This document shows, piece after piece, positions 23,608 to 58,380 of a DNA stretch of 64,000 nucleotides. The translations under genes and the position numbers were made by a program. Numbering within the stretch: the stretch's first letter is position 1; every line of letters starts with the position of its first letter. The stretch is from Owenia fusiformis (taxonomy: Eukaryota; Annelida; Polychaeta; Sabellida; Oweniidae): positions 2,542,001 to 2,606,000 of the forward strand of contig CAIIXF020000006.1 in NCBI GenBank assembly GCA_903813345.2, given 5' to 3'. Below the pieces are notes generated by a model that saw nothing but the letters and a program-made list of their open reading frames with translations, did no database searches and was not told the DNA's origin.

Positions 23608-26600
23608 TTATGCTGTATTGTACACTGATCGTTTCACATGGGTCGACTTCTCCTGGAAAGTAAAAACAAAAAGAAATAGAATTTATATTATATACATACA
23701 CACCTACATAGTTTACTTTCCCACATAGACATTGGTCGGTTAGCTTGAAGTTCAATAGTTGTAGTTCGTGCTAAAAGTTCAGGTTTACTCCTCAAAAGTG
23801 TTACACTCCCCTCCAAAAGTTTGGCAACCCTAGCTCCCTCATTGAACTATGTGTTAAAGCCTCTTTATGTTTAATTTTTTATTTGCATAACCTGTGGAGA
23901 AAAAACTTATAATATTAATGGGAATGTATCTTGACTTCATTTACAATGCTTCCAAAATTTTCCATTTTTTCAATTAGGTCGGAAATCGATGATAAATCTG
24001 ATGAATTTTTGAAAATAGACATTCCCATGTAAACCAATGTGAAATGGTAGATCAGATTTGCCGCAAGTCAAACGACAGAATATTCATCCATCAACGTTCT
24101 TGCAAAAAATACAAGTTAGGTAGTCAATTAAACTTGCTAACTTTATCTAATAAAAATTGATACGTTTCTTCAGGTTTAAAAAGTTTTAGGTCTTCAAAGT
24201 CAAAATCATTTAAAGAAAACTCGTCCCATTGAAATAACACAGCAGAATACAACACAATGATTTTCAAAAATGACTTTGAACCTCTGTAACTTTAGTATTC
24301 ATAAAGTAAAATGAACACCTAGGGTACAAAAAGGTTAAACAATTATACAAAAATATTTTTGGTGAATCTTTTACTGGATAGATATCCTGAAATTAGATTT
24401 GCTTCGAACCCACCATTCCCATTGATATACATGGGAATGACGATTTTCAAAAATTCATCAAATTTATCATCAATTTCCGTAATTTAGGAAAAATTGGGAA
24501 AATTTGGAGGCATTGGAAATGAAGTCAAGTTACATTTTCATCAATATCATAAGTATTTTCTTCACAGGTTATGTAAATAAAAATTCAAACATAAAGAGGC
24601 CCTAACACGTAGTTCAATGAGGAAATGAGGGTTGCCAAACTTATGGAGGGGAGTATATATTTTAATAGGAACTTAATTGGTTGTATAATAAAATTATAAA
24701 ATGGTGGCCAAATATTCAATCACGTTGCGATTTGTTAAGACATTGAAACTTTAAGTTTTGACCCACACTCTGTACTGTAATAAATTGTATTTCAAATTAT
24801 GTTAACATCTGAGCATATCATGTTGAGGTTAACATGTGTTTTCGGTTTTTGTATTTTGAAAAGGATTGTGATTGCTCTTAAAATTGCTCACTTCTATACT
24901 TGGATTTTGCAGGTATGTAGTCACGCTGGACCCTTGTCCCCAAGTCTGCTGATAGGGCAATTCGAAGTCGTCTGATTTGCCAAGAGGCTTGTAGCCACGT
25001 GCCCATACCTAAAGGAAAATGGCTATTGCATAATTTGGTGAAATGGTGGTATACAGTGGATGACTTCGGATTGATTTTTTCGTCTATCAGGTCTCAACTT
25101 GCTCTGACTCCAAAATTCTGGAGAAAAATTAACGTTGATCAAAATGAGAAATATTGACATAAAAGCCACAAAAATTGGTGAGAGAAATAAAGTTATTGTT
25201 GAAAGAAGATTTTAATAAAATGATGGGGGCGATTCTGGTAATTTTTGTTTGGAGCGAGGGAAGAAACGGATGACAACTGCGTTTCAGTTTTTGACTTTGT
25301 TATTGCAGCAATAACACTCTCTCTCTTATCTGTTCCGATCATTACAGCTTGAACACACCCTTCACAAGCTATTAAACATATTTGGAAATGTTGCGCCATT
25401 TTGATATCTCAGCTCTACCAGCGAGCAAAATATGTTTCTAGATACCAACATACCTTGACTTTGCTATTTCCTTTGACCTTTGCTCCATTTGGAAATGTAA
25501 AATCAACTTTGTCGCCAGTATCCTCAAGCAAACGCTTTATTTTCCAACCAGTTAAGTCTTCGTCCTTAAATCAGATGAAAACAAACAGATTTCTGATTTT
25601 TGTTTTCAATAATGTAGCAAGATCAAATCTATTACAGATTCGTGTGTGTTTTCCAAGTATTGTGGTAGTAATAAGACGTATTGTTACAATATAATAAATA
25701 TGAATAAATAAATATTAAATCACATATTGGTTATACTATTCGCCGACCTTTGATACATGCGATAAAACACATTTGCTCCCACTCTCTCCCGAAGGGGAAA
25801 CCACGTTACCTTGCTCTGTGTATTTTCTAACACGATATAGGTGGCATCTTCGGAACAATCGCAGATTCCGACGGGACCCTTGGCTTCCTTCTGGTATTTG
25901 ATTTTAGCCTGCATCTCTCCTGTGATAACGCGATGCGTTGTGATGTCTACAAATGATCAAATTCCTTCTTGAACTCATAAACATGTACTTGTACAGTTGT
26001 CGTGTGAAAATAAACAATGAAACACCTTTGACTAGTCTATCATTGTTTTGAGAGTTCCGACAAAAATATTTTTTTATCAAACATTTACTTTTATTTCACC
26101 ATGGGCTTTCAATTGAATGCCCATGATTTCACAAAATATATTTCAAAATAATAAATATATTTCAAAAATCATTTATTTCTCAAAGTTGTTCAAACATTCA
26201 TAAAAATTGAACCTTAATATATTCTTGAGCTATAAAAACTAGTATATTTAGAAAAAATCATACAACAACCTACCAGTTTTCTCTTGGGTTTCCTGCTTCA
26301 TGCTGTACTGCCGAAGTAATGCCTCGATTGCCTGCTTTAAACCAACTCTACAGAGAAAAATGTATCAATTAGATTTACTCATGAGTTTTAGATCAATTTA
26401 AAGATGGTAACAGTGCTTTTAAATTGTAGTGTATTGTATTGTCTTTTATAAGAGAGATTAAAGAAAGATGTACAGGGTGAGCCAAAACGGTGGCCCAAAC
26501 AAATCTTAATAACTCGGTCATTCCATCCAGTATGGGGTTTAAGTCAAATTTTGCACAATTGAGCCATGTTCAATCTTCTTTCATTCAAGTTGTAAACTCA

Positions 26601-29600
26601 AGTTTTATTAGTCTTTGTCCAATGGTCACGATTTTTTGGCCATTTTACAAAACATGTCCAATGGTCATGGTTTTATGGCCATTTTACAAAACATGTCCAA
26701 TGGTCACGATTTTATGGCCATTTTACAAATTATGTCCAATGGTCATGGTTTTATGGCCATTTTACAAAACATGTCCAATGGTCACGATTTTATGGCCATT
26801 TTACAAAACATGTCCAATGGTCACGATTTTATGGCCATTTTACAAAACATGTCCAATGGTTACGATTTAATGGCCATTTTACAAAACATGTCCAATGGTC
26901 ACGATTTTATGGCCATTTTACAAAACATGTCCAATGGTTACGATTTTATGGCCATTTTACAAAGCATGTCCAATGGTCACGATTTTATGGCCATTTTACA
27001 AAACATGCCCCAAATGACAAAGCATACACAATATGCCCATCTTCTCCTCTTGTCAATTATATTACAAAAAATTAGTTACACATACTGTACTGTGATGGTG
27101 GTATTCTATCCATATCTAAGCACAGGTGGAAAAGGGAAAGGACCAAAAGTTGTAATGGAACTTAGCAAGAAAAAGCAAACTCTAAGTGCATACCAGTCAA
27201 GAAAAACAAACCCCATTTATCCCAAAACCATGATCTAACATGAAAAGAAACAATGTCTAATACCCCCTTTCCCCCACCATTCAAGAACCGATATCACAAT
27301 CCAAGACCAGAACACCAAGGGACATTTCATTCATACTGAAGTCATTACAATACATGTTGAGAAAATTAGAAATTGATAGCCAATATTCATAACATCAAAA
27401 ATAGTTGTAGATACAAGTACTCATACAAGATAGAGCATTTAGTCTCAAATGATGTGGGATAGATATGATCCAGTCTCCAAGTCCATAGGCGTTTCAAAGG
27501 GTCAACATCCATTCACAAAAGCCGTCGCCATAATCCATAAACACAATAATGTCATTTGGAGATGAAGAAAGGGAGTTTATGTGCTCCCTATTTTGTTTTA
27601 TAAAAGATCATGGTTCAAATAGGACATTTTCAAAAGGTATGGTAAAAGCATTTATGACGACGCATACGCACCACATCAAGATGTCGTTCTCTAGTTGGAT
27701 CTAACGATTGAGATTCAATCAGACCTAAATTTGCAAATGAAACAAAGCCCTATATGACTTAATTATATGGAATGCGTTGGGACTTCATGGGACTTTAGCT
27801 AACTTAAATAGCTACTTACGAGTCATGCGCCCCCTCCAGCAGCTTTCTATACGCCGCAATTTCAACCCTCATTGAGAGATTGACATCCTTGGTCTCGTCA
27901 AACTTCACCTTCATTGCTCTGATCTCCTCTCTTAATCGCGCTATCTCCTGGTTTGGTTGATCCTTTTGTGATTCTGTCTCAATAACGCGTCGTTTGTACT
28001 GATTGACGTCATTTTCTAACTGGTTGCTCTTAAATAAACAAATATTAGGATCATTGTACAGAAAATTATCGAAATAAATTAATATTGGATGGAGGGGGAT
28101 TGGATGGAGGGGGATTGGATGGAGGGGGGGGATAACGTGTATATAAGACATGATAAGACATACTATTTGAATTTATTCTTATGACTCCAAATCCCATTTT
28201 TCATTCTCCAGAGATATAATATCCAGTTTCTTACTGGGGTGCTGAATTTGTTCCATCGTAGACATATAAATCCCCCTCCATCCAATATTAATTTATTTCG
28301 ATTATTTTTTGTATAACGCATGGAAACTAACTTTAAAAAGTGAGCAATGTCATTAGTATTGTGATAATAACGTCCCTTATACCTAGTATTTATTACAGGT
28401 CGTGTAGACCATTGTTGCCCGATTTATAGCAAAAATTCTTTGCTATAAAGCCTTTTTAATAGATATCTTAGAAGGGTATCAGTTCAAAAAAATACTAGAT
28501 GACCTAATATATTTTGCCATGCACTGCGCCTATTCCTTTGGCAATTCAGTTGTAAATTTTCTCTTAAAAAAATAAATTTTCCTTTGTTGAGTTTTCTTGC
28601 AGAAATCGCCTAATCCCCCCTCCCTCCATCCATTTTGTGCGATCAACGGGCGTGACCCTGTATGATGTCTTGAATTCAAGTAACTCTTGCGTAAGTTGTA
28701 TTACATGGTTCTACCTTGAACTGGCCTTACCTTTAAACCATATGCTGCCTTGGTGACTTCAAGCTGTTCATCGTAGGAATCCTGAATCTTCTTGAGGCCT
28801 TGTTCCATCTTCTTGGTCCATATATCCTCTTCCTTTTGGCGGTCCCTTGATAGAATATCGTCCAAGTCGTTGAGTCGCTGAAAATAAAGTCCAATGCACG
28901 TGTTAACCGGGAATCATAACGCAAAGAATTTTTTCTTCCAATACTAACCACAAGAATAAAGTAAATAAATAAATCATTTAGTTCTCAATCAAATAAGTTT
29001 GAAACTATATCTTATACTACTACATACTACAGTTTCTCATTTCAGTAAGAATACTGTGTATGGGGAATTCCGGTGGTGGCACTATGGGCCGCGACATGTA
29101 CATATTTAGCTTCAAGTGAAAGCACATCACGTTTGTACGTTCAAAAATAAAACTTCATTTCATTTTATTGTGTCTGGAGTAGCTATAAAGACGTTTGTTT
29201 TTGTTGATTTAAAGACAAATTAGCACAACTGAGAACACATCGACCATTAACAATCAACAGGTTATAAAACATTTTCAGATTAAAGTACGACTATATTCTT
29301 TACCCAAATACACAAAGTGGAGCAAAAAACGTCCGTATTTATATTTGATGATAACTTTCTAAAAAAGGTATGCATTCAAAAATCGTATGCACTTCAATTT
29401 CAAAATGGCCACCATTTTTTGCAGAAAATCATAATCTTTGATGATCAAATACCGGTAGACTGCTTTGATTCAAATTTTATACACTGATGCCTAGAGATAA
29501 AGGAACTCTCCTCAAGATGGCAGCTGAAATAGCCACCATTTTCAAAAAAACATGATCTTCAAAAACTCAAATTCGAGTGGACAGATTTGGCCGACTGAGG

Positions 29601-40254: not shown

Positions 40255-41036
40255 CATTATTTTAATTCAAGAAGGAACTATTTAAAATCATCATCTCAAG
40301 GTCTGAAATCTCCATTATCTCAAATGTGGGATACTGTTGTGCAGTACAACCTCATAGACTATGTTAAGAACATGATTTTTAATGCAGAAATCCCTTCAAA
40401 ACAAGAATTTAGAACTGTAGTCTACGGACGTGTCAAGAGTTTTCACAATTATAGTACTGTTTTATCATCATTAATGTATAAAAATCTAAACGTGGTGACA
40501 GGATCGTTGTCTATCCTAAAACCGAATGTATGGTGGGTGATCGCAAAAGAAAACCCCAATGTATTATACCTCTGTAAAATTATGGTCAAATTATTAACCT
40601 CGACATATTTTAACAGTAGACGCCGTGAGGGTGACACAACTTTATCAGAAATCTGTATATTTTGTGATCTTAACGAAAGAGAAAGTGTTAAGCATTTCTT
40701 GATTACTTGTCCAGCTTTTACTGATGTTAGAAAACCCTTACTCAATTTAGCGAGGGGTAATCTGAATGTAATGAACGACGATTATATTCTTAAAGTGATT
40801 CTAGGAACTGTATACAATGATGATAAGGAGACTCTGTTACTCATAGCTATGCATGTGTACGAGTTACACAGGCATAGGCAATTTCTTGTGGATAAAAGTT
40901 AGTTATCCTCTTTACCTTACATCAAGTAACACAAATATGTTTTATAATTTTATTTAATTTTCTCTACATGTTAATATGAATGTAACTCTCTTTTATTTAA
41001 GAGGTAAATAAATTATACATACATACATATACGAGT
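40255..41036 (+). mobile_element. 5'-truncated non-LTR retrotransposon (LINE) 3' end
   Basis: The ORF open from 40255 to the stop at 40902 (ATG at 40324) ends with a Cys/His cluster, ICIFCDLNERESVKHFL then TCPAF and VRKPLL. That C..C....H...C pattern is the C-terminal zinc-binding segment that follows reverse transcriptase in many LINE ORF2 proteins. About 130 bp downstream the element ends in AATAAATTA followed by a TACA microsatellite (41019-41036), a typical CR1/L2-like 3' tail. The polymerase domain is absent, so this is a dead 5'-truncated copy. The clade assignment is inference. Confidence 0.65.
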
Positions 41037-47768: not shown

Positions 47769-47810
47769 TTATGAAGTGTAGAGGGTCCTCTGTTGGTGGG
47801 TGGCTTTCTC
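47769..47810 (-). CDS. IF gene 2 last coding exon
   Basis: 42 nt, acceptor TTTTAG, encoding [13 protein letters not shown] and TAA. Gene 1 ends in a parallel exon (23652-23608, EKSTHVKRSVYNTA), also phase 0 at the same point of the LTD. The shared EK.TH..R..Y end supports both gene models. Confidence 0.85.
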   Translation of the reverse strand, partial: EKATHQQRTLYTS

Positions 47811-50800
47811 CTAAAAGTAAAAATAACTTCATTAGAACTATCCATTATTTTGTGCATTAATCTGCCTTGTGTATTTTAGTACACACGAAATGGCATTGTT
47901 GTTGATAGTTTTTGGATATCAAATTTTTGGATTTTATTGTGTTTGTGTTTTTCTCGTTTTGGAAATAGAAAAGTGCCTAATAGTGTTACCTCTCCATTGA
48001 CGTTGTGCAGAGTTGTTTTGATATTGGCGCCAACTCCAAATGTATTGTTATCTTGCATCTCGAAGTCATCACTACCAGCTGGTCGACTTCCACGGGCCCA
48101 GACCTAAAACACAAGTCAACATTAGTAGGAAAAATATTATTGAATGTCAGCATACATGTTAAATGGGTTATCAACACTGAACAATACATAGTTTTTAAAT
48201 AGTGAAAAATCAACAAAATACGGTTTTGGCCAACTAAAGTCCACAGAACAAACTATTCACTAACAACACTCCAACGCAAATCTATAAACAGAACTAAACA
48301 GGACCAGACACGTTTTAACAGGTCCAAACAAGTCCAGGCAAAACCAAACCACACTTTATAAGTACATGTTTATTGAAAAAGGTTGAGTATGGAACATATG
48401 ACTAAGTTAGACACATAAAGATGCCACCAAAAAGGAAGTAGGAGAAAATGATATTGATAGGGTATATGATTAGTACATGTTGTACAAGACCCGTAAGAGA
48501 CAAGTTTAAGAAACGTGCTTTTTATAAATGTCAGCTAAACATATACACAATTCAGCAATAGAAAACAATTTGACTCACAAATATGTATACGTAAGTGTAA
48601 GAGCATGCAATGTAAAACATGAGTATGGTTAATCAATATCCGAGAGTATGTGCTCATGGTGCTCCTTGGCTTTAAACCTTGCTTCACGTTGACTCTATGA
48701 ATTATTCACAACTAAAAACTATGTTGATGGTAAAATCTACCCAATGGTTGTCAAACATATGCTGGGTCGTTATGAAAACATCAAAATGCTGAAATCAAGA
48801 CAAGCTAAGGAAGCAGACAGTTAACCATGGGGTGCTCTACCTCATCATCATTCTCATTCCGTTCTACCTCATCTTGACCTTCATATAGGCTAGGGTCAAA
48901 TAACTGAGTTCCTGCGGGTGCACATCCCTTTGCCCAAATCTGTTGGCAGCGACAAAATAACACAACACGGGGTATCAATATGAATAAAACACAATAGAGA
49001 AGCAAATGAAGACACAATAGCCCAAAGAGATTGATACAGGGACCTTTTAGATATATGTTTGACATCATACCATTACTTTTTCGATTTTCGATTTGAATTT
49101 ACACGTGTTGCCCAACCTAATAGCTTCAGTTGATCTGCTATCAAAACCATAAGCTTAAACATGGAGAGTGTCAACATTTTAAGCCCGGAAAAAACATTTG
49201 TACCTTAATTGCTTTCTGTCCTGGTCGAGATGATATGACTGCTCCCTTGGGGAAGGTGAATTTGATCTCCTTCTTGGTATCCTCAAGGTATCGTTTGATG
49301 AACCAACCATCAAGGGGCTCGTCCTGAAAACAAAGGATTAAATACATTAGATAATTTACAGCTCGGTATAAGTAGTCCTATAGCCTAATGATGCGAATGA
49401 CAAGATGAATTTGGAGTCGATGAGCCGTATTTCACCTTGCCATGCAAATAATATCCCAAACTATCATAGCGTATTACTTATTCATCATTACGATAACATT
49501 TATAAACTAATGCATTGTACATACATGACTATTTCATCTGATATGCTTCCAGCTACCATCGAAGGTGAGCAGGAAGATAATCTTCAAGAGATTTAGAATT
49601 GACAAATTATACACATACATAAAGCTTACTAATCCTACTCGATAGCAGAGTTAAGGAATGAATATGATGGTATAAGCAGTAAAAGATGGATGGAGCATTG
49701 TGTCAGTACATGTACCAAATTTGAGCTGTCCATCCCGCCATTAAGAAACAAATATTCTAGATTCAATCCAATCAGGCACGTTTGTGGCACATTAGGAAGC
49801 TTTATTGTTTCTAATTTGACCACTTAACCCTCATATGCCACAAAGAGCTCATTTCACTAGATTATCAGGTTCTTAATTGTGCTAATTGCAAGTCAATTTT
49901 CCTAAACCATATGACCAAGTCCATGACATGGAAATACTATCGTCGAGGATTCGTCAAGCTAGGCTTTCGACGGCTATGTAAGTGTAGCTTCTTAGTGACA
50001 AATACCCAACAACAACATCCATAGTAGTTCAGGCCAATATGTTCCCAAATGGGACCACGAAGAAAAGTTAAATTTCATTTTAGAAGTTTACCACTCTATG
50101 TTATCAAGAGCATTTCCGCTCCCACATGAGAAAAGGTAAATGCCTAAATTGTGATTCATGAGATATGCAGTATTACACAAACAAACACACATAAGCACAA
50201 TGACAAGACATTGGTTACTATGATACATTAGACCCACATTTTGAAACCACAACTTACATCGAAAATGAGTCTACTGCCCAACTGTAACACATAACAAATC
50301 CACATAGTGAACATGGCATTCTAAATTAAGATACTTTCCCATACCCTGTCTCATGTGGGAAAAGAGATATTACAACACTTCAAACTGCATAGCATTGAGG
50401 CAAACTGGCTTTGTAGAAAAAATAAGCACTAAAAATTGTTTTGGTGCAAAAAATCTGCAAACATCTGCCTACAGAAGCGTGCTTATATATATATACGCAT
50501 AAACATGAGGTCATATATTCATTCAAGCGTCAAAACTGAGGTTCATTTTTTATAAATGTATGAATCCATCATTTTCACTTTGCAATGATGATCATGTAAC
50601 AAGGTTATATATACCTTCTTTCCTGTGTTTTCTAGGGCAACGTATTTGCCATCTGGGCTGCACTCGGAGATGGAGACTGGTCCCTTTGCACTCCTCTGAT
50701 ATGTTGTCTTGGCAGACATCTCTCCCTTAACGACCTGGCTAACCTTCATATCTATAATAGCCATTCAGATACATGTAAGTTTACAGGTATTTTGATAGAT

Positions 50801-53800
50801 TTTGTTATTAAAATATTTACATTGTTGTTTATATGTTATTGATATCACAATGGTCTTCTCAAAAATGTATAATACTTTTTCATTTCGTTAATTTTTTTAT
50901 GATGCTTAGTGTCACACAAGCACACATATTGAACTTTTTTTAACGCCACGTGTTCAAACTTATAGCGTTTTTACAGAATACATTTTTATACGGTCTATAC
51001 ACGTAGCTATACCACATTTCACATGCATAACGTAAGTATACAGAAAAAGTGTTAAAAATACGCTGAGGTTTAAAGATAAGTGTTGGAGTGCAATAGTGTG
51101 CAAACAATATAAAACATGTATCTGCAAAATATATAAAACGAAAACTAATTCAGGTAAACAACTCTACACTACTACATAAATATACCATTGCTCATTTTGC
51201 TATAATTCGCCCCTAACGAATTCCGATTTTAATGTTATCAGCAATATTTGGAATTGTCAAACCCTTTCAGCAATTTAAAAAAACATACAAAGAAAGGCTA
51301 CATCATTTATTTGTCTGAAGAATAGTTAGATAAGAATATTTATTGTGCAAATATTTGATTTCATTTGTTTAAATGTCGTTTGTTAGTTTGTTTACAAGCT
51401 TGGAAGCCAAAGCTTGGTTAGAATATCCGAGGCTAAACTCAAACAATGTCATGATCATCAAATTTTGCTAATCCCTGAAACTTGAGTGAAATGTGATTTC
51501 TATAAAATGTTGAGGGTGCAAAGTAATATGCCCAACTCCCGTATCCCCTTTATGTTTGTAATAATGACCATTGTGTTGTTTAGCGAGGGATACCACTACC
51601 CACCAACAGGCTTTTCATCTTTCTCAGTGGTAGTAATGGTTTTAGTAACAGTGGTGGTTTCAACCACTTTCTCTTTACTAGAAGAGGATGCTGATGAGAG
51701 TTGTTCGTTAATCATTTCCTGGCGACTTTGTTGTATGGAGCTATTTTGCTGGATCAATGACTCTACCACTTGTTTCAAGCCAAGCCTAAACGTGCAAACA
51801 CAACACCATGCTAAGATTAGAAGTCTACCACCAACTGATTGTTAAATTAAATTAAACATCAATGCTACACGTGCTACATGCTAGCTACATTCTAATTACA
51901 AAAATACCTAAAGTAAAAAATGAATAAAAAGCAACTAAAATGTTATGACTCCTCTAGCGTGTCTATGGGTTGTGATAAGTCGACGTTCTTCAGCCGGAAG
52001 AGCGCGTTTTTTCTAAACTAATAGAAACGTGAAATTCGAGGGGTGATCAATAAGTAATTGAAGCTTTTTTACACAGATGCTTGTAAAAAGCGTCCATTAC
52101 TTATTGATCACCACTCGTACAAGTTAAACTTTCAAGATTTTTAGGAGTGCAGTTGATCTAAAGAAGTTTGTGCAAAAATTCAAGTTTGTGTGGGGATTAT
52201 GTGATAATAAGCACATATTCAAAATGTGGAAGTGTAGATCATGTTTATGTGCAAGGCAAAACAACAGACTGGGGACAGTGTGCCCAAAAGAATTTTATTT
52301 TGGAAGATTGTTTTTCATAAACAATGTGTGCAAGGAGATCTATAAAGTAGCTGTTTAAAAGGACAAAAGATTTCGGAAAAGATTTTGTGGACAAAAAAAG
52401 GTATTCCAGGATGCCTTGATGTATTCTAGTTTGTATAATATAGGGGAGTGAGATATATTTAGAATATACTGCTCGTGTAGGGGATTCCGGAGAGGGATGG
52501 AGAATTCATAGGGTATCTTATGTAGTCGCGTGTGGGGATACATTTACTGACCTTCTTTTTCAATAGATACTTCTTTAGAATCAAAGGACTTCTCATAAAC
52601 AAATAAAGACCTTGTGTAAAACAAATAAAGGTATGAAAAGTGGGTAAAATGAAAAGAGATTAGTAAATGAAATTGTAACGTGGTTGGGGCAAACGTGCTT
52701 TAACCATGCAGCTCAAAGACTTCATGATATTATATATTATTCGTTAATTCTATAAAGTTCAAGAACTTTTTCGCATTAATGATTAGGGAATTATTCTAAT
52801 CATAAGGAAGATATATTTCTATTCTATATGAGCCAAATGTCGATGTTAATACTGCGATACTTTGTATATGATATCATACAGTCTTTAGCCCACTGTAATA
52901 TCCCAAATACAACACGTAGGTTAGTAAAATGCCCCGTTACCATCATCTCCAGCACTTTGAGATGTGTTAGTGACTGAACTGCTGCTTGATTCAATTTTCA
53001 TCTCTCTCTTAAATGAATATGAATCATCAACTATGCCCTTCAAAACCCTGTGGAAAACAACAATGCAAAAAGTGCTAACTATATGTAGTTTAATTAAACA
53101 ACAAAAGCAGAAACACAAGTTAATACGAATCTTTGCAAAAAGCAACAGAGTTCATCAACTCAACATGGTGGTGTCCTGATCTCTGAAAACGATAATCTAA
53201 CTACATCTACTCCAAATAGCATAATGTGTAGTTGTTAGTCTACTACAATGGCGTTGTTATAGTCGTTTTCACAATGCAGCAATAAAAACACATTCGAAGC
53301 ACAAAAGGCTATGACGTCAAGTTGGTTGGCGGCCATCTTGGTTCAAAGTACAAAACAAGATGCATGGTTCACAGCGCACACAGACGTCACGTGATCAGTT
53401 AGGTAAACACCACATACCATCATCATCATCGCCCTCTCCGTAACCAATTGACTGAGAATAGCCACTGGAGCTGGAATAGCCGCCGCCGCCGCCGCCTCCA
53501 CCACCGCTAACCATGAAACTTTCAACTAGAGTCTTCAGTCCACCCCTGTGCATATGAAAGACAACCAATCATGCACTTGGTTTATAATTCATGTTATATT
53601 AGTAGTTGAGTATCTTTACCATTACCCTTGTTCCTTATAATCTGCAGGGCATGCAATGTCAGTATGTATGTAAAGTAGAAAAATGATGTTGTCATAGACG
53701 TGTTAGACGACCATTCCATGTGATTGTTGATGTATGGTCGCTCTTGGTTCAAGGGCATCACCTAATATTGAAATGAGAAGGGACGAAGTACAAAGAAGAC

Positions 53801-56800
53801 AAGACACTACACTGAGCTATTCATTGATAGGTATATAGTGCACTCATTTCTGCAAGAGTCTTTGAGATTAAGCATGCATTTCAAGTATATCTACACCTTT
53901 CCAATGAATGCCAAAGGATATGCCATACAGCAACAACAATGTGATCCGATTGCGTTGATACAATTGCGAAACAAAGATGGTGTTGTGACTGTATGGCATG
54001 CCCATAACCAGATAGCTTTTTTATTAATACTGAATCAAAACCCGAATCAACCAATCACCATCACCGACACACACTATAGGGGGCCTTCCTGTTTTCACAT
54101 ACCAGTATCATAGTCAATTGAACTTTGTTCCTGCCCTGTAGTTATCCATTGCTCTACTACTTGTTTCAAACCGTGCCTAAATTCAAAGTATACATGGGAG
54201 AGAGCAACAAACATATAAAGCCAAACAACACAAACATTACTAAACTATATGACACATTCGAACATCATATAAATACTGTATATAATACAATTTTGTGATT
54301 AATAGACGAAAATATATTGGAATGTACACCAATCGTATTACAAATAGCTGAGATGTACGTATCATGTATATAAAACTCGTGGCTAGCAATATATCATAAT
54401 TGAACATTATTCAATTTTATTTTAAATTTCGGTATTGAGCTTACCTGTTCTCTTCACCCTCCAAGAGTTTCCTGTATGCAGCAATCTCGAGTTCCAGTGA
54501 GAGTTTGATATCCATGATATCTTGGAGTTCCTTCAACATGCCTTCCATCTCAGCTCTAAGTTTTACAAGCTCTGATTTCAGCTCGTTGCCCTCAATCTCC
54601 CATTCTCTCTGCTTCTCTTCGTATTCACGTCTCAATAGTTCAAGCTCCTTCTCGAGTTGGGCATTCTAGTGAACCAAAGAATAATTTATGAACATACAAG
54701 CTAAAGATAAAAGGAGGATTCCTCAGAATTCATATATGGACGTATATCTATCTCAATATAAAGATGAACCTTTAAATTTGATTTATATTTGGATTTACTC
54801 TCGATTACGACATTCTTAATTTGAGGCATTGCCAGAAAGTGGGATTATATTAATGGGGTTTTATATTTCTGGATTTATGTTAGATATTTTAAAATATAAT
54901 CTTCTTTGTATAAACATGTTTCTGATTCATATTTGGTATCTCAGATGAATAATCTACGTGTTTATAGTAATACGCTACAAATACATAAAATCAAAGTGAC
55001 TATTTCAGACAATTGTTCACCGAAGAATGAAACAAAATGACTAAGTCTATAGACACAATCAGATGAAACAATATCACACAACACACGTTGATCTGTTCAA
55101 ACAATGCTCATTTATAATATGTGCATAAACATGCATATAATTCGATATATCACAATATGAACCTGTGTTTAAATTTTCGATGTGTAAAGCATTGTCTTAA
55201 CATTGTAACGTGTGTGAGCTTCTAGGAAAATGAAATAAATAATAACAAAAATAATAAGTCTACGTGCCAATAGATGGTGGTTCATGAAAACGTAATCAAA
55301 TAACTTATGACATATACACAACCATAAAAATGTTACGTCAATCGAGTTACGAATGTCACATATCGTATATGTAATAAGTTATTCGTTCACAGTTATGGAA
55401 AACTGATGGCTAGATATCCACTAGAGATATATCAACTGTCTTCAATAGCACTCATGCATCCTCTACCATAAAAACTTCAAGCATTCTCTTTTTCCAGTCG
55501 AATGTAAAGCAACTACTTTGATGACATATGTTTTTGTTATATACATTCTTTAAAAAAGCGCCTTGTTGCCATTCCCTACCACATTCAAAGTTGTAAATGT
55601 TTACTAAGCAATATTCAGTAAGCAGTATCTAGCCTACCACACAGTCCAAATCGGAAATGCATCTAGGCAGATAACCATTTAATTATTCAAAGTTGCATTG
55701 GGACTGTGTAATAGACTTGATCTGTAGTGATTGTGTATAGCACACTGTGAAGTCATCGAGGTATATCAGCACCATAATGAAAAAAAATAAAATAAAACAA
55801 AAAACATAAATAAATAAATGGATAAAACGACACTCATGCTCATGCCCTGAATATACTTTTGCCATGCCATACTCAATAAGTGTTGACCCATCCATTTTGA
55901 TAACATGCAAATAAAAACAAAATGCTGAAATAAATGTTTCTATGGAGGATCTAAGTAATAGGCGTATTCCAAGACGTTCCCTTATGAAGGTCCTTAAATG
56001 TGTTAGTCTGGCATCCCTATAGCCTAAAGTGTTAAGAAGACTTGTTAGGCCAAGTCTTGCCGTTGAGCAAGCTCCACATGGTTGACGTTATATCGGGGCT
56101 ATAGATATCTAAACAAAATCGCAAATTGAAAAGTATAGTGAACTTCAACTCAAAGGAAAGTGTCACTTAGAATCAACAAGCCAATTTGTTACAGATATCA
56201 AAGCCTGGATCGCTGAATCAACCATTTTGTACTATTGTAAGATGTTCCGTTTCTATCCTAATCATCCACCATTCCGACCTGCCGGCATGCTCTCTTCGTG
56301 GTCACTACTTACTCGAACTTCAAAGTCAGCTAATTTTTGACGAAGATCGTTCAACTGAGTTCTTAGCCTCTTGCTTTCTTCCTTAGCATGTTCTGCTTCC
56401 ATACCTGTACGGGCTGATCCAGTGCGGAATTCTTGCACCTACACAATACAACATATAACAAAACAAATGAAACAAACCTTAATTAAAACAAGGGTGGCGT
56501 ACCACACGATCAGGTTGGATCAACTGACCAGAAACCATTGAAACAGAAATCTGTAAACCCCTGATGCCAGGCAATGAAGCTGGCAATATAGATATAACCT
56601 CTTAATCGGGGTGACCTCTACCTCTTTAGATTTTGTTCTGTTCAGTGTCACCAATTTGTCACGTGATACCCCATTGTCCTCCATCCATCATAGATGGATA
56701 CTTACTCTAATTTCTAAATCGGCAACACGTGCTCTTAATTCTTGAGTAGTTGATCTTAATCGTTTACTTTCTTCCTTAGAATGTTGAGCTTCCATACCTT

Positions 56801-58380
56801 GCTTAGCAGATCCTGTTTTGAATTCCGATACCTACATTTACACAATACAACGTAAAACATGCAGTGGTAGAATATAATATGGTGTAATATGTAAGACAAC
56901 TACACATCTACACGGACTAGAACACAAAACGGACACACACACACAAATGTTTAGGCTCCTTCTGGGCGTCAGGCTCCAGCCACACTTACTCTCGCCTCGG
57001 ACTCGGCAAGTTGCGAACGTAAATTAGCCGATTGAGTTTTCAAGCGTTTGGACTCTTCTTTTGAGTATTGGGCCTCGATGCCTTGCTTCTTGGCACCAGT
57101 TGTGATTTCCCTTTGCTAGCATAAACACATTGCATACGTTCATTTTATAAGTACTTTCAAATGCTCTGTTGGAGGACAGTGAATGATGAGTATCGTATGG
57201 ATTTGTAAATCGAATACTACTTGAGACACATACACACAAAAGTGGCATACATAATATGATTTAAGTGATATGGGCTTAAGTGGGGATTATTGTACATAGG
57301 GAAAGTATTATGCTTGAGTATTTAAAAAGCTATTTGTGTACCAAATTTAAGCATCTCACGTTTAGCACATTAAAATTGTGTTTGAGGAAGAAATTCCATA
57401 CAAAATGAAATGATGTGAGTTGTGCCGATACATTTAAAGTATCAATTTTACTCCACGAGATGAATTAGTTCAACAATTCGAACTGTTTTAGAACTATGCT
57501 CTGATTTATTTGTGGCGGAATAAGAAATTCAGTTCAAATGAGTCACATATGAGAAATTGCATAAAATTTGTAGTTTATTACGAAAAAGCATGTAAATTAT
57601 TTTAAAAATGGCCTAGGGTGGTTAAGACAAGCAACATATTTTTTTAAACTACTAAAATGGCATTTTGACCTCGGGGACAACGCACAGGGACCGCAAGGGT
57701 TGGAAGTCACAGTAATAAATTCAAAAGTTGCCACTTTAATTGCTAACTTAGATCATTATATTCGTATGGTGCATATTTGGGAGTTAAAACGAGTAGACTA
57801 GACCATAGGTGGTTGTTTCCTGCATCCCATCACGCTGAGGGATACTGCACTAGACAAATAAATTTCTTTTTTAACTTTTTGATATAGCTAATGAATTTCT
57901 TGAATGTTCGTCGTTACTCCATCGTATCTAAAAGGAAGGCCTGAAATGAAGTCATTAGACATAGAACACAAAGCATATTCATTTTATGTCACATTTGAAT
58001 CAATTATATAAAGGTGTCGTATCATATTTCTTAAAATCACCACTATCATTATCATTAACCTTAATTTATCCAAACGTGGTTTTGTAAAATTACCTTTAAT
58101 ACATTATTTGTAGAAATTGAAATAACTGCTCAGTGCTCCACAATATTATATTTGCATTAATATACAAATGACAGATTACACTATGATATCGTGTCGTCAC
58201 AATTGGACTCAGGCTTACTTTGAGATTGTAGAAGGTCTCCATTTCTCCTCTGATTGAGTTGACCTTCTCATCGTAAGCTTCTTGGATTTCACGGAGGCAT
58301 TGAGCCATCTCGTTCTTCCAGAATTCACGGTTCTCCTGTGTTGGATCTCTGTAAGCGAGGCAAGCCAACTCCTTGCATTC
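47769..58380 (-). CDS. Cytoplasmic intermediate filament protein with lamin tail domain (IF gene 2, 5'-partial, alternatively spliced)
   Basis: Paralogue of gene 1, same strand. Shared exons: 58380-58219 (end of coil 1B to early coil 2, motif [16 protein letters not shown]), 54665-54445 (end of coil 2, [14 protein letters not shown]), 50751-50615 (start of LTD), 49323-49204 ([13 protein letters not shown]), 48103-47990 ([13 protein letters not shown]) and 47810-47769 (terminal exon, [13 protein letters not shown] then stop). Between them lie three coil-2 exons, four or five linker exons and an alternative LTD exon, each described separately. One path through the gene gives 996 nt, 331 residues, in frame throughout. 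Head, coil 1A and most of coil 1B were not found up to 64000, so the gene extends leftward in transcript terms beyond the window. The classical [13 protein letters not shown] motif is intact, unlike in gene 1. No CaaX box, so cytoplasmic. Which exon combinations are used cannot be seen from DNA. Confidence 0.87.
47990..48103 (-). CDS. IF gene 2 canonical LTD exon 3
   Basis: 114-nt phase-0 exon, acceptor TTTTAG, donor GTAACA. It encodes [20 protein letters not shown] then [18 protein letters not shown]. The TFGVG..I/V.T pattern is the last core strand of the lamin tail domain; gene 1 has TWGQGSSVTT at the same place. Confidence 0.88.
48369..48374 (-). terminator. Possible poly(A) signal for the short LTD isoform (AATAAA)
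   Basis: A canonical AATAAA on the minus strand inside the intron downstream of the stop-containing LTD exon (stop at 48805). It would allow that exon to act as an alternative terminal exon with a ~430-nt 3' UTR and so avoid nonsense-mediated decay. Confidence 0.4.
48805..48939 (-). CDS. IF gene 2 alternative LTD exon with its own stop
   Basis: Acceptor CAACAG, then in-frame [20 protein letters not shown] and a very acidic stretch, ending VNCLLP and TAG (45 codons with stop). The start IWAKG..PAG parallels VWARG..PAG of exon 48103-47990, so it is a duplicated LTD exon that diverged after its first ten codons. Used as a terminal exon it would replace the last LTD strands with an acidic tail. 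Two in-frame GAG|GTAGA sites could act as phase-0 donors, letting it splice to the last exon instead. An AATAAA signal lies about 430 bp downstream (48369-48374). Confidence 0.72.
   Translation of the reverse strand: MWAKGCAPAGTQLFDPSLYEGQDEVERNENDDEVEHPMVNCLLP
49204..49323 (-). CDS. IF gene 2 shared LTD exon 2
   Basis: 120-nt phase-0 exon. It encodes [20 protein letters not shown] then [20 protein letters not shown]. It aligns directly with gene 1 exon 25564-25454 (DEDLTGWKIKRLLEDTGDKV). It ends after a Lys codon, and both downstream LTD exons start in phase 0 with V/I-W-A-R/K-G. Confidence 0.88.
50615..50751 (-). CDS. IF gene 2 shared LTD exon 1
   Basis: 137-nt exon, entered in phase 1 (previous G plus AT makes Asp), left in phase 0 at GTATAT. 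It encodes [20 protein letters not shown] followed by [20 protein letters not shown] and ENTGKK. This is the first beta-strand block of the lamin tail domain; gene 1's equivalent is 25919-25810. Confidence 0.87.
51604..51785 (-). CDS. IF gene 2 alternative linker exon E (long, Ser/Thr-rich)
   Basis: 182-nt exon (2 mod 3), acceptor TTTAG, donor GTGGGT, phase 2 to phase 1. It encodes [20 protein letters not shown], then Ser- and Thr-rich sequence ([20 protein letters not shown]) ending EKDEKPVG. It is the longest linker and nearest to the LTD exons. The many Ser/Thr and Lys residues suggest a phosphorylatable spacer; this is inference. Confidence 0.82.
52041..52113. repeat. 73-bp hairpin between linker exons D and E
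   Basis: GGTGATCAATAAGTAATTGA at the left is mirrored by ATTACTTATTGATCACC at the right, with inner AGCTTTTTTAC/GTAAAAAGC pairing. Likely a tiny foldback transposon, but it would form a stable hairpin in the pre-mRNA within the alternative exon cluster. Confidence 0.65.
52552..52610 (-). CDS. IF gene 2 possible linker exon D (59 nt)
   Basis: Candidate only. A T-rich tract and CAAG acceptor precede 59 nt, followed by a weak donor GTCAGT. Length is 2 mod 3 and both phases (in 2, out 1) fit the other linker exons. It would encode [20 protein letters not shown] plus G. It lacks the LK..VE signature, so it could also be chance. Its position between exons C and E supports it. Confidence 0.4.
52941..53047 (-). 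CDS. IF gene 2 alternative linker exon C (serine-rich)
   Basis: 107-nt exon (2 mod 3), acceptor CACAG, donor GTAACG, phase 2 to phase 1. It encodes [20 protein letters not shown], then a Ser-rich stretch ending AGDDG. It keeps the LK..V signature of A, B and E in a diverged form. Like exon B it ends GATGATG just before the donor. If the donor is not used the frame closes after six more codons. Confidence 0.74.
53418..53545 (-). CDS. IF gene 2 alternative linker exon B (glycine-rich)
   Basis: 128-nt exon (2 mod 3), acceptor CACAG, donor GTATGT, phase 2 to phase 1. It opens [14 protein letters not shown], then a run of seven Gly, Ser/Tyr-rich repeats and an acidic DDDDG end. The LK..VE opening is shared with exons A and E. 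The Gly run recalls glycine loops in keratin end domains (analogy only). The GGC-rich codon run could be length-polymorphic. Confidence 0.8.
54103..54176 (-). CDS. IF gene 2 alternative linker exon A
   Basis: 74-nt exon (2 mod 3), entered in phase 2, left in phase 1 at GTATGT. It encodes [18 protein letters not shown] followed by an acidic end DYDTG. It matches gene 1's single linker exon (26347-26274) in length, phase and the GLKQxxE start, so it is probably the ancestral form. It connects the rod end to the LTD. Confidence 0.8.
54445..54665 (-). CDS. IF gene 2 shared rod-end exon
   Basis: 221-nt exon, acceptor CTAG, donor GTAAGC. It encodes the end of coil 2: [11 protein letters not shown] at the start, [19 protein letters not shown], and the IF hallmark [16 protein letters not shown]. 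It ends in phase 2 (codon starts with AG), and every candidate linker exon downstream supplies the third base G to complete an Arg codon. Confidence 0.92.
54666..56312. other. Intron of IF gene 2, nothing recognised
   Basis: No further 42-codon coil-2 exon was found between exon c and the rod-end exon. Confidence 0.5.
56313..56438 (-). CDS. IF gene 2 coil-2 alternative exon c (42 codons)
   Basis: Phase-0, 126-nt exon with TAG acceptor and GTAAGT donor. It begins [12 protein letters not shown], core [10 protein letters not shown], and ends LADFEVR. This is closest to the usual protostome IF sequence at this place (VQEFRTGA-type), so it may be the ancestral copy; that is inference. It is followed by a 1.6-kb intron before the shared rod-end exon. 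Confidence 0.86.
56706..56831 (-). CDS. IF gene 2 coil-2 alternative exon b (42 codons)
   Basis: Phase-0, 126-nt exon with TAG acceptor and GTAAGT donor. It begins [12 protein letters not shown] and carries the core [10 protein letters not shown]. It shares about 26 of 42 residues with exon c by eye and has the same length and phase as exons a and c. The introns on either side are short (158 and 267 bp), as expected for a locally duplicated exon. Confidence 0.86.
56990..57115 (-). CDS. IF gene 2 coil-2 alternative exon a (42 codons)
   Basis: Phase-0 exon between a TAG acceptor and a GTAAGT donor, exactly 126 nt. It encodes 42 residues starting [12 protein letters not shown], with the core YSKEESKRL. 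By position and sequence it is the coil-2 segment that follows the conserved FYNLK end of exon 58380-58219. About 22 of 42 residues match exon b by eye. It lies first in the trio in transcript order, 158 bp from exon b. Either single use or tandem inclusion keeps the reading frame. Confidence 0.85.
57116..58218. other. Intron of IF gene 2, nothing recognised
   Basis: AT-rich; no fourth coil-2 exon seen. Confidence 0.5.

Follow-up and report, generated by a model that had tools for sequence, protein, structure and literature searches.

Candidate alternative linker exons between the rod and the lamin tail domain in a cytoplasmic intermediate-filament gene of Owenia fusiformis

A snail (Helix) intermediate-filament (IF) gene, reportedly described by Dodemont in 1990, makes tails with and without a lamin tail domain (LTD), and cytoplasmic IF genes of C. 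elegans are said (again by Dodemont, in 1994) to give rise to several products through RNA processing. The variants reported for both animals possess or lack the LTD or differ in their ends, and are not known to involve an interchangeable set of linkers. Annelid and cephalopod lamins have alternative C-termini (PMC10125929), and clusters of mutually exclusive exons are described in muscle myosin heavy-chain genes of protostomes, including annelids and molluscs (PMC3912159). The locus presented here lies in a stretch of 64,000 nucleotides (nt) from the annelid Owenia fusiformis (assembly GCA_903813345.2, contig CAIIXF020000006.1, positions 2,542,001 to 2,606,000), hereafter the window, whose own coordinates are used below unless a contig or another locus is named. 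It contains part of gene 2 which, to judge by its predicted protein, is a protostome-type cytoplasmic IF gene with an LTD. Five exons or candidate exons, A to E, were found between the rod and LTD exons of this gene. Our analysis indicated that A, B, C and the 5' part of E, possibly together with D, probably serve as alternative exons for the rod-to-LTD stretch of a cytoplasmic IF protein (probability about 0.7).

Exons A to E and their slot

The linker slot was defined as the 3,688-nt interval between the last rod exon and the first LTD exon of gene 2. Its features are given below with the acceptor and donor scores of the linkers.

54445..54665, minus strand: last rod exon (end of coil 2), 221 nt, phase 2 exit; Pfam Filament match over the assembled protein
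54103..54176, minus strand: linker exon A, 74 nt; acceptor 7.9, donor 9.1; short with acidic end
53418..53545, minus strand: linker exon B, 128 nt; acceptor 4.2, donor 8.7; Gly-rich with acidic end
52941..53047, minus strand: linker exon C, 107 nt; acceptor 5.0, donor 6.4; Ser-rich with acidic end
52552..52610, minus strand: candidate linker exon D, 59 nt; acceptor 5.7, donor 7.4; short, charged, without the shared motif
51604..51785, minus strand: linker exon E, 182-nt form; acceptor 4.8, donor -1.6; long, Ser/Thr-rich
50615..50751, minus strand: first LTD exon, 137 nt, phase 1 entry; Pfam LTD

All five are entered after the AG of an R codon (phase 2) and left after one base (phase 1), have lengths of 2 mod 3 and keep an open frame. 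Their coordinates, lengths and phases are exactly those claimed by the first-pass annotation of this DNA, which was also right in that a GLK..VE signature opens A, B and E and LK..V opens C (D has neither). Relative to A, the length gap amounts to 18 residues for B, 11 for C and 5 for D, and to 36 or 11 for E, depending on whether its 182-nt form or an alternative 107-nt form is considered. A published method limits mutually exclusive exon copies to a gap of 20 amino acids by default (PMC3912159); B, C, D and the 107-nt form of E fall inside this limit and the 182-nt form outside.

The splice-site matrices were built from 30 donors and 29 acceptors of IF and lamin-like genes of this genome, including the linkers of the paralogous genes 1 and 3 and three coil-2 exon copies of gene 2 and excluding A to E. 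An unguided scan of the slot for exons of 30-320 nt with correct phases, an open frame and acceptor and donor scores of at least 3.0 each returned five candidates, namely A (16.9), D (13.0), B (12.9), C (11.4) and the 107-nt form of E (9.8). The 182-nt form is missing because its donor lies below the threshold. None of 100 dinucleotide shuffles reached five candidates (mean 0.7 and maximum 4 at scores of at least 9.2). At scores of at least 11.4, which four linkers reached, the shuffles gave a mean of 0.41 and a maximum of 3. The antisense strand of the slot yielded two candidates at the lower and one at the higher of these levels.

The shared start, too, is uncommon by chance. Directly after AG, GLK..[VI][ED] occurred four times in 90 kb searched on both strands (A, B, E and the linker of gene 1) and its G-less version once more, at C; all five lie on the minus strand and none on the plus strand, with an expectation of 0.01 in the slot interval (from 100 simulated 90-kb strands). 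Nine bases separate A from B over the seven codons of the motif, and no codon is common to the two, yet five of seven residues are equal, a result matched in 8 of 5000 random trials; B and E (ten base differences, again five of seven residues) were matched in one trial of 5000, although such numbers flatter the motif because it was picked for its likeness. The remaining pairs were weaker (gene 1-B 13, gene 1-E 21, A-E 252 and gene 1-A 278 per 5000 trials), C being left out of these trials. This pattern suggests that the motif of B has been kept by selection at the protein level.

At the DNA level, A and E display 82% identity over 38 nt, including the last five intron bases. A and B have in common a 16-nt repeat (88%) that spans the 3' end and the donor, which may be chance since a third copy sits inside an intron. 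D is equal to the other linkers at only 5-9 of 30 bases. The proposal that the cluster arose by local duplication and divergence is well supported for A and E and partially for B (through the motif and the 16-nt repeat); for C it is backed by the motif only and for D it is unsupported. The start of the gene 1 linker is slightly nearer E (19 of 30 bases equal) than A (17 of 30), so that A's length alone does not show A to be ancestral.

All 32 ordered subsets of A to E were joined in silico to the rod exon on one side and to the LTD exons on the other, using the third LTD exon named ltd3b. Five joins, each with a single linker, reached the LTD and the normal stop; the remaining 27 ran into a premature stop 358 to 836 nt upstream of the final junction. 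When E took its 107-nt form, one of the 16 joins containing that form kept the LTD, namely the single-linker join. Judged by length, one or four linkers keep the frame, and all five four-linker joins carry early stops. That frame alone enforces one linker was accordingly rejected, stop codons doing the rest; the earlier claim that one and only one linker gives a full-length LTD is true in effect, in 5 of 32 joins, yet not via the frame alone. Since phase 2 entry and phase 1 exit make skipping or multiple joining stop early, one linker would be expected per LTD-bearing mRNA. By the usual rule, an mRNA with such an early stop is targeted for decay.

The exon anatomy and the frame logic can be read directly from the sequence, whereas we infer that the linkers are used in RNA in a mutually exclusive way, that mis-joined mRNAs decay and that the linkers differ in function. 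Inclusion of no linker or of several would lead to an early stop and thereby to destruction of the mRNA or to a protein without LTD. The shared start GLK..VE (not present in D), next to the helix-termination end, probably closes off the rod. Beyond it the linkers, which span about 20 to 61 residues in all, diverge in size and chemistry. The simplest effect of their choice would be a change in tether length, flexibility and phosphorylation sites, which would affect the distance at which the LTD is kept from the filament and the partners or phosphorylation involved.

Gene 2, its other multiplied slots and its paralogues

Gene 2 lies on the minus strand and runs from exon 1 at 83825 (window coordinates, beyond the window end) to 47769. 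Its exons were located via open frames and similarity; joined with linker A they code, without any frame break, for a protein of 620 residues. Pfam Filament (PF00038) matched residues 106-459 over model positions 1-313 of 313 (E 2.2e-59) and Pfam LTD (PF00932) matched residues 503-614 (E 9.7e-12, above cut-off). CDK5RAP3, the third model above cut-off, was taken as a coiled-coil cross-match. Protostome-type cytoplasmic IF proteins possess 42 extra, lamin-like residues in coil 1B (PMC4829535). In the gene 2 protein the alignment with vimentin stopped at query residue 208 and restarted at 250, both at chain residue 201, and lamin A/C aligned in a single piece over 88-370. The C-terminus (...QQRTLYTS) displays no CaaX. 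Further exons of gene 2, and the linker of gene 1, are the following.

56990..57115, minus strand: coil-2 exon copy 5a, gene 2, 126 nt
56706..56831, minus strand: coil-2 exon copy 5b, gene 2, 126 nt
56313..56438, minus strand: coil-2 exon copy 5c, gene 2, 126 nt
49204..49323, minus strand: second LTD exon, gene 2, 120 nt
48841..48939, minus strand: candidate alternative third LTD exon (ltd3a), gene 2, 99 nt; acceptor 2.4, donor 4.0
47990..48103, minus strand: third LTD exon (ltd3b), gene 2, 114 nt; Pfam LTD
47769..47810, minus strand: last LTD exon with stop codon, gene 2
26274..26347, minus strand: linker exon of gene 1 in the same slot, 74 nt

Copies 5a to 5c precede the last rod exon, code for 42 residues (six heptads) each and display 51-62% protein identity; they are candidate alternative rod segments. 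The likeness of ltd3a to ltd3b is 47% identity over only 15 residues, and with ltd3a the Pfam LTD match stays above cut-off but spans only 2-70 of 109 positions. Since both the coil-2 and the third-LTD slots are phase 0-0, the frame does not police them. Gene 2 might then be a combinatorial set that offers a choice among three coil-2 exons, five linkers and two versions of the third LTD exon, with up to 30 forms if all are used, in which the frame would police the linker slot and another mechanism the others; we regard this extension as rather unlikely. Were it true, one gene would furnish different tissues with filament subunits that vary in assembly, tether and tail, for which vertebrates use an IF gene family.

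Gene 1, which lies in the window at about 32.3-23.6 kb, and gene 3, on contig C1, are the two paralogues that were found; a lamin-like gene was located on contig C10. In each of genes 1 and 3 a single motif-bearing linker was seen (74 and 71 nt respectively), which supports the reading of A to E as alternative linkers; the first-pass annotation had correctly given gene 1 a single exon of A's length in this slot (26347-26274). A genome search with E and the LTD returned E itself (one match) and eight LTD-exon matches, all in genes 1 to 3, and no further linker-bearing IF genes. The Pfam LTD model had four matches in the genome, on contigs C1, C4 and C10, the one on C10 adjoining lamin-like rod exons. 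A counterpart of coil-2 exon 5 was not found between exons 4 and 6 of gene 1 (28740-28010) or of gene 3 (L004 8600-9210). One appeared plausible by eye in the lamin-like gene, and it would be unusual for coil 2 to lose 42 residues.

In a myosin heavy-chain gene elsewhere in the genome (C9:37986009-37994334), one motor-domain exon is repeated in tandem at least 12 times, with several apparent donors of the type TAG/GTTGGT. As other slots of gene 2 are multiplied and such a myosin cluster exists, clustered exons would not be exceptional in this animal.

Two other sequences were recorded in the window. A tandem repeat (26616-27007, period 39, 10.1 copies) occupies part of the rod-to-linker intron of gene 1, and an open frame on the plus strand (40255-40902, 215 amino acids) weakly matched, below cut-off, the reverse-transcriptase zinc-binding region.

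The end of exon E and competing readings

Several observations weigh against a set of alternative linkers. Seven control introns of genes 1 and 2 (29,105 nt) also yielded candidates in the splice-site scan, seven at scores of at least 9.2 and five at scores of at least 11.4, that is 0.89 and 0.63 per slot-interval length, so that single candidates can be false. One of these candidates, without motif, reached 18.1 in the slot of gene 1 (27234-27194, 41 nt). D by itself is not above chance, candidates scoring at least 12.9 being expected at 0.26 per interval in shuffles and at 0.38 in introns; as it also lacks the motif, D is uncertain as an exon. The introns between linkers (330-766 nt) are too long for steric exclusion, and no clear long-range RNA pairing was seen among the eight inverted repeats listed, for which no shuffled control was made. 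No mechanism that would enforce exclusion before translation emerged from the sequence. Lastly, the 182-nt donor of E (TTG/GTGGGT, -1.6) lies far below the leave-one-out minimum of the 30 training donors (3.1), and E has two further possible ends.

None of the eight inverted repeats resembled the pairing of a docking system. The strongest was a local hairpin in the intron between D and E (52037-52117), with two 33-nt arms that are 91% complementary, which may derive from a small, now degraded transposable element.

The start of E is secure. Its end is unsettled between the 182-nt form, the 107-nt form and a last exon without LTD. The features concerned are the following.

51679..51785, minus strand: E, alternative 107-nt form; donor CTA/GTAAAG, score 5.0; in frame with the LTD; same length as C
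51596..51785, minus strand: E as last exon, open beyond the 182-nt donor to TAG at 51598-51596; tail without LTD
51306..51344, minus strand: two AATAAA hexamers downstream of E, with starts at 51344 and 51311; no more than chance would give in such AT-rich DNA

Because the frame stays open beyond the 182-nt donor to a TAG one full codon further, E could (also) be an alternative last exon, the mRNA being cut within the next 850 nt and the protein ending in a Ser/Thr-rich tail without LTD. In a variant of this scheme E may be a composite exon, the 107-nt donor being used when the LTD is included. We consider a terminal E possible, with somewhat less than an even chance. The weakness of the 182-nt donor speaks for it, below all training donors and also below all nine donors that were scored in the myosin cluster (9 of 12, placed by eye; -0.2 to 4.1), as do the in-frame 107-nt donor, the close stop, the two AATAAA and one ATTAAA before the LTD, and the existence of tails without LTD among protostomes, reportedly also from the Helix gene. 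Yet A and D reach a stop at equal distance past their own donors, and two AATAAA in about 850 nt are near what the base composition predicts (about one, by our own estimate), for which reason the hexamers were dropped as support. Likewise, the argument that the 182-nt donor is unusable and E hence terminal was weakened, since eight of the nine myosin-cluster donors (borders by eye) also lie under the training minimum and a human-type donor matrix favours the 182-nt donor (2.2 versus -1.1 for the 107-nt donor). Charged residues end the 182-nt form, as in the other linkers.

Two further explanations touch the cluster as a whole. If only A were used, B to E would be duplication relics or cryptic, rarely spliced exons; the splice sites of A do score highest (16.9 in sum, compared with 11.4-13.0 for B to D), and a single motif-bearing linker is seen in each of genes 1 and 3. 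This appears improbable, as B to E are all without stop or frame break and the motif codons of B have been kept as protein despite 9-10 base changes. Alternatively, the extra linkers could act mainly as poison exons, inclusion of two or none switching LTD production off and the choice of a single linker being secondary. The premature stops of the other 27 joins, all well ahead of the final junction, are in keeping with this, but any asymmetric slot would behave alike, and a poison exon would require neither a motif conserved at the protein level nor coding sequences as distinctive as those of B, C and E; we hold this explanation to be very improbable. A set of alternative linkers remains the preferred reading.

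Comparison with known systems

Mutually exclusive exon clusters are a known type of arrangement. Among the matches listed in a search of the open-licence literature, none described a cluster of linker exons for a cytoplasmic IF gene; the IF gene and the rod-LTD slot would, among those matches, be without precedent, with exclusion itself being putative. If used, the cluster would represent a filament protein whose variants arise within one gene through exchange of the rod-to-tail tether while the rest is kept constant, and its linkers would be natural variants for testing the role of this tether. Linker choice could adapt filaments to individual tissues. The IFA-2 protein of C. elegans requires its tail but can do without its head (PMC4351089), so that tail variation could matter for tissue strength.

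Gene 2 compares with mammalian GFAP in that splice variants would arise from one IF gene. GFAP isoforms differ in alternative C-terminal tails and are not known to involve an LTD or a linker cluster. With annelid and cephalopod lamins the likeness is that a lophotrochozoan gene of the IF family changes its tail through extra exons. Their change concerns the very C-terminus (with or without CaaX), whereas the one proposed here precedes the LTD of a cytoplasmic IF protein. With the myosin clusters, gene 2 has in common adjacent exons that serve a single position in a cytoskeletal protein, equal phase, partly similar sequence and several predicted isoforms per gene. In contrast to those copies, which mostly encode parts of folded domains and are usually close in length, the linkers of gene 2 would form a variable tether of 20-61 residues of which only the start is shared, in a slot that is asymmetric in phase.

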